A DNA stretch of 49,321 nucleotides, from positions 1-49,321 of the forward strand of contig JACQEN010000085.1 in assembly GCA_016200585.1 (NCBI GenBank). Direction: 5' to 3'. Numbering within the stretch: the first letter of the stretch is position 1; each line of letters begins with the position of its first letter. Below, one piece after another: positions 24,166-29,822 of the stretch. The DNA is from Deltaproteobacteria bacterium. GTDB taxonomy: Bacteria > Desulfobacterota > Binatia > HRBIN30. A model generated the notes under the pieces. It had not been told where the DNA came from and did not search any database. It saw nothing but the letters and a program-made list of their open reading frames with translations. Made by a program: the position numbers and the translations under genes.

Positions 24166-24750
24166 ATGAAGCTGGTGCAGGTCGTTTGCTTGACTGGTGT
24201 GGGGCTCTCTTTCGCCGGCTGTGCCCGGCAGGTCAGCTACCAGGATCCCACGCGGGTCGAAACGGTCACGGAAGAATGGGGTTCGAGCGACATCCAGACG
24301 GTTGCCGATCGCATGGCGAATTCGATGGTGCGCCTGCCGGAGATCGCCAACAATTCGCGACCGATCGTTCAAGTGAGCACGTTGAAAAACAAGACCACCG
24401 AGCACATCGATACGAAGAGTATCACCGACAAAATTCGGACGGCCTTGATCAAGACCGGGATGGTTCGGTTTACGGCGGTTTCCGACGCCGCGGCCGAAAT
24501 AGGTGAGAACATCGACTATCAGCAGGGGGGTGCCGTGAACAAAGCTACCGCCAAGAAGAGCGGCAAGCAGGTCGGTGCCGACTATCTCCTGTACGGCGAG
24601 GTGGATTCGATCGTCAAGCAAGCCGGACGGACCACCGACGTGTACTACAAGTTGACTCTGAATCTTGCCAACGTCGAGACCGGGATCATCGAGTGGAGCG
24701 ATGAAAAGGAGATTCGGAAACAAGCCGAACGCCCGCTACTCGGTTACTAG
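24166..24750 (+). CDS. lpoB: Penicillin-binding protein activator LpoB-like lipoprotein
   Basis: 194 residues. Lipobox FAGC (after VCLTGVGLS) places it in the outer membrane. The LpoB domain shows RPIVQVSTLKNKTTEHIDTKSITDKIRTALIKTGMVRF and KQVGADYLLYGEVDSIVKQ, then YYKLTLNLANVETGIIEWSDEKEIRK. In E. coli LpoB stimulates PBP1B from the outer membrane. Here it ends a cluster with YcfL, a COG3014 protein and a second CsgG-like protein, 20 bases after ycfL. A GAAGGAG site precedes the ATG. Assignment is by family; the partner PBP is not in the window. Confidence 0.85.
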   Translation: MKLVQVVCLTGVGLSFAGCARQVSYQDPTRVETVTEEWGSSDIQTVADRMANSMVRLPEIANNSRPIVQVSTLKNKTTEHIDTKSITDKIRTALIKTGMVRFTAVSDAAAEIGENIDYQQGGAVNKATAKKSGKQVGADYLLYGEVDSIVKQAGRTTDVYYKLTLNLANVETGIIEWSDEKEIRKQAERPLLGY

Positions 24751-25430: not shown

Positions 25431-25525
25431 GACGGCCGAGAGTAAGATCAAGACACCGGTTCGTCAATCGGATTTTTCCGCTCCTGCGTGGCTTGTGCGG
25501 CGACGCGTGTGGTACAGGAAAGCGC

Positions 25526-27178
25526 GTGGAGTCAAGCGATTTCTTGGTCATCGGTAGCGGCCTTGCCGGCTTGAGCTTTGCGCTCAAAGCGGCGGCGGTC
25601 GGACGTGTGCTTGTGCTCACCAAAGACCGGCTGCCGGAGAGTGCGACTGAATACGCTCAGGGTGGCATCGCCTCGGTGTGGAGTGCCGACGATTCTTTCG
25701 AAGAGCACAGTCAAGATACGATGACGGCAGGTGCGTCGCTGTGCCATCAAGACATCGTCGATCTGGTGGTGCGCGAGGGCCCGGAGCACGTGCGCCAATT
25801 GATCGCCCTTGGCACGCGCTTCTCGACGCGCGGCGGCAAGCACGCCGACGAATATGATCTGGGTCAGGAAGGCGGCCACAGTCGCCGCCGCATCTTGCAC
25901 GCTTCGGATGCCACCGGCCGGGAAATCATGCGGGCTCTGATCGAAGCCGTGCGCCGCGAGCCCAACATCAAGGTCCTCGAAAAACACCTTGCGGTCGATC
26001 TGCTCATCGACAGCAAGTTCGACCCCGCGATCAAACGGCCGTCGTGCTGGGGCGCGTACGCGCTTGATGTCACCACCGGTGTGGTTGGACGCTATCAAGC
26101 CAAAGCGACGCTTCTGGCGACCGGCGGGGCAGGGAAGGTGTACTTGTACACGACCAATCCGGATGTGGCGTCGGGGGACGGCATCGCCATGGCTTGGCGC
26201 GCTGGAGTGCCGGTCGGCAACATGGAGTTCATTCAATTTCACCCGACCTGTCTCTACCACCCACGCGCCAAGTCGTTCCTCATCACCGAAGCGATGCGCG
26301 GTGAAGGCGCGATTCTGCGGCGCCCCGACGGCGAGGCGTTCATGAAACGCTACGACGCGCGCGCCGAGCTGGCGCCGCGTGACATCGTGGCCCGGGCCAT
26401 CGACAGCGAAATGAAGGTGCACGGCTTCGAGCACGTCTACCTCGACATCACGCAGCGCGATGCCGAGTTCGTGCGCCAGCGCTTTCCAGTCATCTATGAG
26501 CGCTGCCTCGAGTTCGGCATCGACATCACACGCGACCAGATTCCGGTCGTGCCGGCGGCTCACTATTGCTGCGGCGGCGTCATGACCGATGCGGATGGTG
26601 CCACGGCCATCCAACGACTGTATGCCGCCGGCGAGGTGACGATGACCGGCCTGCACGGTGCCAATCGTCTGGCGTCGAATTCTCTGCTCGAAGGATTGGT
26701 GTTCGGCCACCGGGCCGCGGCGAGCGCTCAGTTGCTCGTCCGCGGCGACCGGCAACGCACGCCGGATCTCCCGGATTGGAATCCCGGCAAGGCGGTGAAC
26801 AGCGACGAGATGGTCGTCGTGACGCAGAACTGGGACGAGATCCGCCGCATGATGTGGAACTACGTCGGCATCGTACGCTCGAATCGTCGCCTGGCACGGG
26901 CTCTCAAACGCATCACGCTGCTGCAGGAGGAGATCCGTGAGTACTATTGGGACTTCCTGGTCACCGGCGACCTCATCGAGCTGCGCAACATCGCGCTCGT
27001 CGCAGAGCTGATCATTCGCTCCGCCATCAGCCGCAAAGAGAGTCGCGGCCTGCACTTCAACATCGACTACCCGCAGCGTGACGATGCCAAGTGGCTGCAC
27101 GATACGGTTCTGCCGCCGGGAGGGGAGCGTAGCGCGGAGCCAGCTCATGGAGATCGGTCCGCGTCCTCTGGTGTCTAG
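25526..27178 (+). CDS. nadB: L-aspartate oxidase
   Basis: 550 residues from GTG 25526 (AGGAAA seven bases before); a TTG at 25493 is less likely. FAD site FLVIGSGLAGLSFALKAA at the very start, substrate-loop motifs EYAQGGIASVW and HSRRRILHASDATG, and the C-terminal YAAGEVTMTGLHGANRLASNSLLEGLVFG seal the assignment. It oxidises L-aspartate to iminoaspartate, the first step of NAD synthesis, in the cytosol. The C-terminal helical domain is complete, with a short extra tail. nadA/nadC are not in the window. Confidence 0.95.
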   Translation: MESSDFLVIGSGLAGLSFALKAAAVGRVLVLTKDRLPESATEYAQGGIASVWSADDSFEEHSQDTMTAGASLCHQDIVDLVVREGPEHVRQLIALGTRFSTRGGKHADEYDLGQEGGHSRRRILHASDATGREIMRALIEAVRREPNIKVLEKHLAVDLLIDSKFDPAIKRPSCWGAYALDVTTGVVGRYQAKATLLATGGAGKVYLYTTNPDVASGDGIAMAWRAGVPVGNMEFIQFHPTCLYHPRAKSFLITEAMRGEGAILRRPDGEAFMKRYDARAELAPRDIVARAIDSEMKVHGFEHVYLDITQRDAEFVRQRFPVIYERCLEFGIDITRDQIPVVPAAHYCCGGVMTDADGATAIQRLYAAGEVTMTGLHGANRLASNSLLEGLVFGHRAAASAQLLVRGDRQRTPDLPDWNPGKAVNSDEMVVVTQNWDEIRRMMWNYVGIVRSNRRLARALKRITLLQEEIREYYWDFLVTGDLIELRNIALVAELIIRSAISRKESRGLHFNIDYPQRDDAKWLHDTVLPPGGERSAEPAHGDRSASSGV

Positions 27179-27213: not shown

Positions 27214-28332
27214 TCAACGCATGCCGGGGGTGTTTGCGGCGGAGTTGAAATTCGTCAGGCCGAGCTCCTGCGGCAGGCCGGCGCTCATGGCGAGCATCAT
27301 GTCATCGAGCGCAATACCGGTCGAATCGGCGATGCGATCGACGACGTTGAAGGCGCCAATCACGGCACAGACATCGACGAACTGCTGCGGTGACAACAGG
27401 CGCAGCAGCTGTGCGCGTTCGTGTTGCATGGCGGCTTGGTCGTTGGCCATGACGGCTTCGGTGAATGCAAGCAAGCGGGCGCCGTGTTCAACGCCTGCGT
27501 CGCCCGTGCACCCGTGTACGGCTTGGAGGTCGACTGCGCTTCCGCTGATCGAGCTGCTCGCACGGAGCAGCGAGGCATGCGCCGTCGTTCAGTAGAAGCA
27601 TTGGTTGAGGGCCGAGACGCGCGCCGCAACCAATTCCATCTGCATGCGATCGAGAGCGCGGCGCGCCGTCGGATCCGGGATCTGCGCCACTGGCAAATAG
27701 TGTGCATCGGAGGACTGCCAGAGAGCGCGCACCTCATCGGGGACCTGACTGAGAGCGCGGACGATGTTGGGAACGAAGGGCAGTCCGAAGTAGATGTCGG
27801 CGTCGGCGCCCGCTGCATCCTCGACGGCGATCATCGGTACCCAGGCCGGGCCTGGTTTTGCGGCGGGGGGCAAATCGTGCGACGGCTCGCCTGGCAGTGC
27901 CGGCGGCAGGGCAAAAGGAGCGAGCCCCAGCGCTCGGGCACAGAAGTCGACACCCGTCAGAAGAGTCACAACAGCGATCACTTCGACGTACTGCGGTACG
28001 CTGACCCCGGCGGCGATGACGCCGTCGAACCAGGCGCGTGACAGGCGTCCCGGGTCGGTGCGGACCCGATGGATGACTTCGACGATCGTCCCGTCCAAGC
28101 CACCCAGTGAGTCGTGCTGGCCGCTGACGGAATTCGGCGAAAGCGCCGCTTGACGATTCTTGCACAGAGAACAATCGAGAGCGTGGCGCGCTTCTGCGGC
28201 GATGGCGATGCGTTCGGCGCCGCTCCACCAGGTGCCGGGCGAGCGGATGTGGTCGAGAATCCGCCGATGCGCATCCTGTAGATCCGCTCGTACCGCAACG
28301 CCGGCAGCGGAGTAGTCGAGGTCGATCGGCAT
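27214..28332 (-). CDS. Candidate selenoprotein: tandem AhpD/CMD-like peroxidase with CxxU motif
   Basis: 372 codons if the in-frame UGA at 27591-27589 is read as Sec (residue 248). Residues 245-252 read C-F-Y-U-T-T-A-H: the catalytic CxxCxxxH motif of AhpD/carboxymuconolactone-decarboxylase proteins, with Sec at the second Cys. After the UGA the frame is open for 124 codons and looks like an AhpD-like C-terminal helical part (LLAFTEAVMANDQAAM, then IGAFNVVDRIADSTGI). The N-terminal half holds a second CMD-like unit with C54-S-L-C57. A SECIS-like hairpin follows. The start ATG at 28332 is seven bases after glyA, so the gene ends the fab-acpP-glyA run. Proposed thiol/selenol peroxidase; substrate unknown. 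The alternative is a nonsense pseudogene. Confidence 0.8.
27553..27571 (-). promoter_or_regulatory. Candidate bacterial SECIS hairpin
   Basis: On the minus strand GCTGCTC-CGTGC-GAGCAGC forms a perfect 7-bp stem with a five-base loop. The loop starts 24 bases after the UGA and has G at its second position. As remembered from bSECIS models, the loop should lie roughly 16-37 bases after the UGA with a G among its first two bases, so the fit is good. Confidence 0.65.
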
Positions 28333-28339
28333 GCGACGA

Positions 28340-29578
28340 TCAGAGTATTCCGAGCGGGAAACGCTTGCACAGCGCAACGACGTCGTTGGCGACGGACTTC
28401 AATTTTGTGTCGTCGCCGACGCTCTGTAGAGCGCGGTGAATGAGCTCGGCGATGACTTCCATTTCGGCTTCCTTCATGCCGCGTGTGGTCACCGCCGGTG
28501 TGCCGATGCGCACGCCGCTGGTCACGAATGGCGAGCGGGTTTCGAACGGTACGGTGTTCTTGTTCACCGTGATGTGTGCCTGGTCGAGGGTTTCCTGGCC
28601 GATCTTGCCGGTCAGCTCGGTGTTGCGCAGATCCAGCAGCATCAGATGATTGTCGGTGCCGCCCGAAACCAAACGGAAGCCGCGTTTCATCAAGCCTTCG
28701 CCCAGAGCCTTGGCATTGAGGACGATCTGCTGCTGGTACTGTTTGAACGCCGGCTGCAGCGCTTCTTTGAAAGCGACGGCCTTGGCGGCGATGACGTGCA
28801 TCAGGGGTCCGCCCTGGTTGCCGGGAAATACCGAGGACCCTACACTCTTGGCGTACTGCTCTTTGCACATGATCATGCCACCGCGCGGTCCGCGCAGCGT
28901 CTTGTGCGTCGTCGTGGTGACGAACTCGCAGTGTGGTATCGGCGAGGGATGAATGCCGGCGGCAACCAATCCTGCGAAGTGCGCGATATCTGCCATGACC
29001 ATGGCCCCGACTTCGTCGGCTGCCTGGCGGAAACGGGCGAAATCGATCTCGCGCGAGTACGCGCTGTAGCCGACGACAATCATCTTCGGACGGTGTTTGC
29101 GCGCCAGGTCGAGCATGGCGTCGTAGTCGAGCCGTTCGTCGGATTGGCGCACGCCGTAGGGAACGACCTTGAAGAATTTGCCCGAGAAATTGACCGGGCT
29201 GCCGTGCGTCAGGTGGCCGCCGTGCGACAGATCCATGCTGAGGATCGTGGCGCCGGGCTCCAACTGCGAGAAGTACACGGCCATGTTGGCCTGCGAGCCG
29301 GAGTGGGGCTGGACGTTGACGTGATCGGCGCCGAAGATTTGCCGAGCCCGATCGATCGCCAGTTGTTCGGCGACGTCGACGAATTCGCACCCGCCGTAGT
29401 AACGCTTGCCCGGGTATCCTTCGGCGTACTTGTTGGTGAGGATCGAGCCTTGCGCTTCGAGCACGGCTCGACTGACGACGTTTTCCGAGGCGATCAGCTC
29501 GAGGTTGTGCTCTTGACGCTGCGCCTCCTGGCGCAGCACCGCAAAGATTTCCGGGTCGACGCGCTCGAGCTCGCTCAT
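28340..29578 (-). CDS. glyA: Serine hydroxymethyltransferase
   Basis: 412 residues, typical length. Recognisable parts are [52 protein letters not shown], and the PLP lysine in [16 protein letters not shown]. It converts serine and tetrahydrofolate to glycine and methylene-THF in the cytosol. The ATG at 29578 is four bases after the acpP stop; the longer frame upstream overlaps acpP and is excluded. Last standard gene in the run before the selenoprotein candidate. Confidence 0.96.
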
Positions 29579-29582
29579 CGGA

Positions 29583-29822
29583 CTACTTCTTGTGGCTTTC
29601 GATATAATTGACCACGTCTTGAACGGTGCGGATCTTTTCCGCCTCCTCGTCGGTGATCTCCATGTCGTATTCTTCCTCGAGCGCCATGACCAGCTCGACG
29701 ATGTCGAGCGAATCGGCACCGAGATCCTCGAGGAACGACGCCGACGGCGTCACCTCCTCCTCGCTGACTCCGAGTTGCTCACAAATGATCTCGCGTACCT
29801 TGGCTTCTACCGGTGATGCCAT
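29583..29822 (-). CDS. acpP: Acyl carrier protein
   Basis: 79 residues, acidic, with the phosphopantetheine Ser in [20 protein letters not shown] strong GGGAGG site precedes the ATG. It carries acyl chains for fatty acid and lipid A synthesis (LpxA is at 35079). It follows fabG with an 82-base gap, where an internal promoter could lie, though none is clear. Confidence 0.97.

Follow-up and report, generated by a model that had tools for sequence, protein, structure and literature searches.

A predicted selenocysteine-containing AhpD-related protein of the NF041238 family in a Binatia genome

Introduction

The protein described here shares its C-terminal domain and its CxxC-xxx-H site with AhpD and the peroxidase-related CMD proteins (TIGR01926 and PF02627; PDB 6k40, 3c1l, and 2pfx). 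AhpD-type proteins carry cysteine at the second Cys position of this site, where the present protein is predicted to carry selenocysteine (Sec), and the matched solved chains are 138–197 residues long, whereas the present protein has 372 residues with an extra N-terminal half. Sestrin2, which is said to have two AhpD-like halves, is of similar length and gives a weak whole-length fold match to the present protein (PDB 5dj4). A Sec-containing family of AhpD-related proteins is also in print. Table 1 of a 2026 review lists the model NF041238 as “AhpD-related protein (hypothetical protein 1, Sargasso Sea metagenome)” with a CxxU motif (PMC13188914), and the 2005 Sargasso Sea selenoproteome reports hypothetical protein 1 with a CXXU motif, a SECIS element, and four sequences (PMC1088965). 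The present protein shares the full-length match, the CFYUT and CxxU motifs, and the SECIS element with this family, and no distinguishing feature was found.

The DNA under study lies in a window, that is, the whole stretch analyzed, of 49,321 nucleotides from a Deltaproteobacteria bacterium (Desulfobacterota; Binatia; HRBIN30; assembly GCA_016200585.1, contig JACQEN010000085.1).

Results

An earlier note, made from the sequence of the window, had placed an AhpD-like selenoprotein at 27214-28332. This interval proved correct, and the strand, which had not been given, is minus. The features discussed below are as follows.

27214-28332, minus strand: predicted selenoprotein gene of the NF041238 family (AhpD-related), 372 residues, ATG start, TGA stop
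27589-27591, minus strand: in-frame TGA, codon 248, very likely read as Sec (TGA in 136/136 crossing alignments)
27577-27600, minus strand: active-site motif C245-F-Y-U248-T-T-A-H252 (translation; 99/99 distinct segments)
27553-27571, minus strand: SECIS hairpin, 7 bp, loop CGUGC, apical GU (pair counts and a synonymous-codon null)
27298-27795, minus strand: C-terminal AhpD/CMD domain, approximately residues 180-345 (PF02627, TIGR00778, 6k40)
27931-28287, minus strand: possibly AhpD-like N-terminal half with helices spanning residues 16-134 (model, Foldseek, half-versus-half comparison)
28162-28173, minus strand: second redox-like motif, C54-S-L-C57 (Cys pair in 104/107 distinct segments)
28340-29719, minus strand: glyA, the gene directly upstream (frame as listed)

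The minus-strand frame runs from the ATG at 28332 to the TGA stop at 27216-27214 and comprises 372 codons, the sole internal stop being the TGA at codon 248 (window 27591-27589). Plus-strand frame 1 across the same interval contains three TGA and one TAG. The minus-strand translation agrees with the earlier reading of a single in-frame UGA at the second Cys position of the active-site motif, and the count of codons that stay open past it is indeed 124. The translated protein matched NF041238 (AhpD_rel_CFYUT) with an E value of 4e-138 and 460.5 bits against a cut-off of 175, over positions 1-357 of the 357 in the profile, and the CFYUT motif of this model is present as C245-F-Y-TGA-T. The description of the gene as being of an unannotated type was therefore wrong, because NCBIfam NF041238 is a dedicated full-length model of a family described in print since 2005; the gene is a well-supported further member of that family and not a new discovery. 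The window protein was 42–63% identical to 22 of 28 aligned members and 32–34% identical to the other 6.

The conservation of the TGA was assessed by a script in which the window protein, its residue 248 masked as X, was aligned to 149 fetched loci, the relatives being drawn from whole genomes and from named contigs (the best 80 of at least 399). Residue 248 was crossed by 136 alignments in 133 of the 149 loci, and the codon was TGA in 136/136; these alignments correspond to 108 distinct 150-base stretches and include the window's own copy (L019), the distant L043 (E 2e-14), and some genomes that were fetched twice. The remaining 16 loci were the sel and tRNA loci L001–L013 and the pieces L040–L042, which fall short of residue 248. 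After identical segments were collapsed and matches above E 1e-20 discarded, a step also applied to the N-terminal Cys pair described below, C245, the stop codon at 248, and H252 were each found in 99/99 distinct aligned segments covering them. The protein sequence past the TGA was conserved as well in a multiple alignment of 29 sequences, which leaves aside L019 (the window itself) together with L028, L033, and L040–L043 (fragments or distant matches); three smaller alignments comprised 12, 25, and 12 hand-chosen members. The invariant codon bears out the suggestion that a TGA at precisely this residue is not random. In L033 (G039:C13), two in-frame TAG codons occur besides the TGA, pointing to a decaying copy or to errors.

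Genome surveys gave a similar picture, in rows that count stops without their positions, the position of the TGA being confirmed in the fetched loci only. One TGA was present in 38/41 matches in the class of the window genome, L033 with its additional TAG codons being one of the 38 and the other 3 being fragments that end before the site; the same held for 49/49 matches in the class to which an alphaproteobacterial genome belongs and for 95/95 in that of a Myxococcota genome. Since the surveys read through stops and counted them, a Cys version should have shown itself if its candidate was scored; at most 5 candidates were scored per genome in the alphaproteobacterial-class, Pseudomonadales-class, and phylum surveys. 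No Cys form inside the NF041238 family was found among the fetched loci or the genomes of three surveyed classes. The class surveys cover Sec-decoding groups, with phyla without Sec, such as Actinobacteria, lying outside the sample, and Cys forms ranking below the 80 relatives retained from at least 399 could be hidden. The homologues with Cys across the UGA that the earlier note had called for are thus present in the wider AhpD family, in that Cys was aligned with U248 in the solved AhpD-type chains 6k40, 3c1l, and 2pfx (three alignments), and none was found inside NF041238 as surveyed. They also seem to have been reported already: the table row for hypothetical protein 1 in PMC1088965 reads 4, 7, 0, 5, which seems to count 7 Cys forms for the Sargasso set and 5 for genomes.

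We then asked for the Sec machinery in the genome of the window, an assembly of 369 contigs with 85% completeness. A tRNA-Sec scored 67.3 bits, over the cut-off, and was confirmed by ARAGORN (anticodon tca) and Rfam; selA (597.5 bits), selB (397.7 bits), and selD (290.7 bits) each exceeded their curated cut-offs, so that all four of selA, selB, selC, and selD, which the earlier note had proposed to look for, are present. A second, partial selB-like match in the same genome (L011, G000:C228:3410-4582) covers profile positions 1-344 of 581, contains an in-frame TAG, and lies under the cut-off. In the class of the window genome, selA was found in 25/28 carriers of the family and in 98/120 non-carriers; the gene is common in the class anyway, and its co-occurrence there is therefore weak evidence. 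Among named carrier genomes, selA exceeded the cut-off in 10 of the 11 tested, reached from 12 loci, and did not in G531, the genome of L071. At E 1e-80, no selA was detected in the carriers G047 (99% complete), G060, and G075. Assembly gaps, mis-binning, or true exceptions may account for these four genomes.

A hairpin of the bacterial SECIS type occupies bases +20 to +38, where 0 is the U of the UGA. All seven of its pairs were formed in 64/100 distinct sequences, many of them related, as compared with 1.6% of shuffles in which synonymous codons were sampled from these genes' flanks, and the mean number of pairs was 6.48 of 7 versus 3.19 in the shuffles. This position stands out, as none of the other centres among the 48 scanned exceeded 4.42. 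The window gene itself forms 7/7 pairs, a number matched by 0.5% of its 200 shuffles, and has a folding-energy z of -2.8. The codon choice is biased by the hairpin: the loop Arg is CGT in 71/100 sequences, although this codon accounts for about 9% of those for Arg in the pool, and the hairpin Ser is AGC in 91/100 versus about 18%. Covariation was seen in the first pair (A-T replacing G-C in 8/100), the second pair (A-T replacing C-G in 9/100), and the last pair (T-A replacing C-G in 4/100), and the apical dinucleotide was GT in 82/108, GG in 25/108, and GC in 1/108. The two basal pairs were often unpaired (the first in at least 24/100 and the second in at least 20/100), and the mean folding-energy z over the 100 sequences was only -1.27, with 16/100 not below the null. 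An Rfam scan of the region returned one chance-level match (Mcr7, E 0.59).

The C-terminal half of the protein was assigned to the AhpD/CMD superfamily by sequence and by fold. Pfam CMD (PF02627) matched at the C-terminal site with 26.1 bits against a cut-off of 23, TIGR00778 scored over its cut-off, and TIGR01926 scored under its own. The top solved chain by sequence was PDB 6k40 (E 1.5e-13), and the closest chains were of the AhpD type. A model built with Cys at residue 248 (mean pLDDT 94.9, pTM 0.94) again ranked 6k40 first in a whole-model Foldseek search (E 7.4e-4). The protein therefore has both the CMD fold and the CxxCxxxH site of the superfamily, the second Cys being replaced by the predicted Sec. 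In the same search, Sestrin2 (5dj4_D) aligned over 399 columns with an E value of 1.5, a probability of 0.38, and an rmsd of 14, and the sequence search of the PDB at E 0.01, with its 10 matches, did not return it. Membership of the sestrins was rejected, as the 5dj4 match is not significant.

For the N-terminal half, the earlier description of a tandem AhpD-like protein is weakly supported by Foldseek and a half-versus-half comparison. Modelled alone, this half reached a pLDDT of 90.9, and AhpD-type chains filled the first 20 Foldseek ranks with a top probability of 0.99; the best of these matches had an E value of 0.11, a TM score of 0.50, and an rmsd of 8.6. Alignment of the two halves placed C54xxC57 over C245xxU248 (E 0.0039), with an HH probability of only 8.5%. 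Pfam CMD gave no match in the N-terminal half in 25/25 members scanned, and profiles of this half found no convincing relative in sequence libraries. Taken together, these data make a duplication of AhpD halves plausible, not proven. C54 and C57 were both Cys in 104/107 distinct aligned segments covering them, and in 96/99 in a smaller set of loci, the exceptions being L038 and L039 as well as the second of two copies in L114. The multiple alignment shows the pair to be missing from L035–L037 too, whose pairwise alignments are too short to reach it. L035–L038 and L039, which are 32–34% identical to the window protein, keep CxxU and lack the N-terminal CxxC.

The gene was examined together with its neighbours. 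As the earlier note had stated, glyA adjoins it, ending at 28340, seven bases upstream; its true start probably lies about 48 codons into the listed frame. The proposed fab-acpP-glyA run was recovered in that fabG and fabD lie further upstream on the same (minus) strand, with acpP depending on our reading of an ORF at 29583-29822, on that strand between fabG and glyA, as this gene. On the other side, an L-aspartate oxidase gene (nadB, 25493-27178, plus strand) converges on the selenoprotein gene, and a LpoB-like protein is encoded at 24166-24750 on the plus strand. In a scan of ORFs of at least 90 aa, up to 6 kb a side and often cut by contig ends, GlyA occurred in 0/80 related neighbourhoods and only in the window's own, suggesting that the site beside glyA is probably incidental. 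The commonest ORF families were the selenoprotein gene itself and seemingly overlapping frames, followed by a FabG-like SDR (11/81), and no conserved neighbour pointing to a substrate was found in the 81 neighbourhoods. A function by way of a glyA operon was rejected, as the neighbourhood is not conserved.

Carriers of the family made up 28/148 genomes in the class of the window genome, 58/90 in the Myxococcota class sampled, and 27/385 in an alphaproteobacterial class; a phylum sample had 5/395, including the window's own, and the class of a Pseudomonadales genome had 1/369, the starting genome itself. The matches listed also place carriers in Myxococcota, alpha- and gammaproteobacteria, Acidobacteria, and Vicinamibacterales. 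A plasmid collection contained no match. Two tandem selenoprotein copies occur in L091 (6001-7077 and 7113-8183, both plus) and two divergent copies in L061 (6001-7101, plus, and 5915-4818, minus), and several genomes in the alphaproteobacterial and Myxococcota classes have 2 to 4 matches. One genome from the order of the window genome contains an in-frame ORF (L042:1441-1980, G010:C13; about 172 aa) that fuses profile positions 1-64 to 275-357 and lacks the entire Sec active site, pointing to an internal deletion or an assembly artefact.

Discussion

The claim of the earlier note that residue 248, in an AhpD-type site, is Sec is strongly supported because the sel genes are present in the genome, the TGA is conserved, and a SECIS hairpin follows it. 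We put the probability that UGA 248 is decoded as Sec in a member of the NF041238 family at about 0.93, judging from sequence. SelB and tRNA-Sec would decode the codon under the direction of the hairpin at +20 to +38, and Sec would thereby take the place of the second Cys in the CxxCxxxH site of AhpD. By analogy with the AhpD fold, U248 may act as the nucleophile that reduces a hydroperoxide or disulfide, C245 may resolve the intermediate to a C245-U248 selenenylsulfide, and a thiol donor or the N-terminal C54xxC57 may re-reduce the latter, with H252 and E233 as a putative proton relay. Such chemistry, in which the protein is a CxxU hydroperoxide or disulfide reductase, appears to be the most likely role, with somewhat better than even support.

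Other readings of the codon were weighed against the same data. A stop-interrupted frame, taken alone, would look identical if the TGA were a true stop or a sequencing or assembly error in a pseudogene or a gene for a truncated 247-residue protein; however, neither an error nor a decayed gene accounts for a TGA at the same codon in 136/136 alignments, for a protein conserved past it, and for a SECIS element, and we rejected this explanation on the conserved TGA as having practically no chance of being right. Stop-codon recoding exists in bacteria, and a recoded or suppressor tRNA could in principle insert tryptophan or cysteine at the UGA. Yet glyA and the selenoprotein gene itself both end in TGA, and the genome has tRNA-Sec, selA, selB, and selD, with a SECIS following the codon, which makes such recoding very improbable.

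If Sec is accepted, the job of the protein is less certain than the residue. Roles such as that of a thiol-disulfide carrier, of a dehalogenating enzyme of the CMD type, or of a sensor akin to sestrins would suit the presence of the debrominase Bmp8 (6ohi, E 0.037) among the Foldseek CMD matches, the Sestrin2 alignment over its 399 columns, though with the poor scores given above, and the neighbours, which give no substrate. The top matches in sequence and in fold are nevertheless AhpD peroxidase-related proteins, and the sestrin match is not significant; we accordingly give a role other than peroxide reduction the smaller share of our belief, albeit a sizeable one. A two-headed selenoenzyme, in which duplicated AhpD halves share one chain, C54xxC57 relays electrons to CxxU, and the site is Sec-locked in Sec-decoding lineages from several phyla with Cys not tolerated, is a further reading, which we regard as rather unlikely.

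Reading the raw sequence may have found a true selenoprotein that Sec-blind gene callers would cut in two. The family is common in the sampled Myxococcota class, and no assigned substrate was found for it; the apparent Sec lock in the sampled groups, together with the second conserved CxxC, offers a testable case of Sec being kept and not reverting to Cys. Shorter AhpD-type matches under the family cut-off also occur in the class of the window genome, many with one in-frame TGA (for example, G100:C1:652697-653275, G084:C43:13883-14452, and G018:C22:16659-17135), the position of which was checked in L043 only; these matches suggest that AhpD-like selenoproteins may be numerous in this clade.
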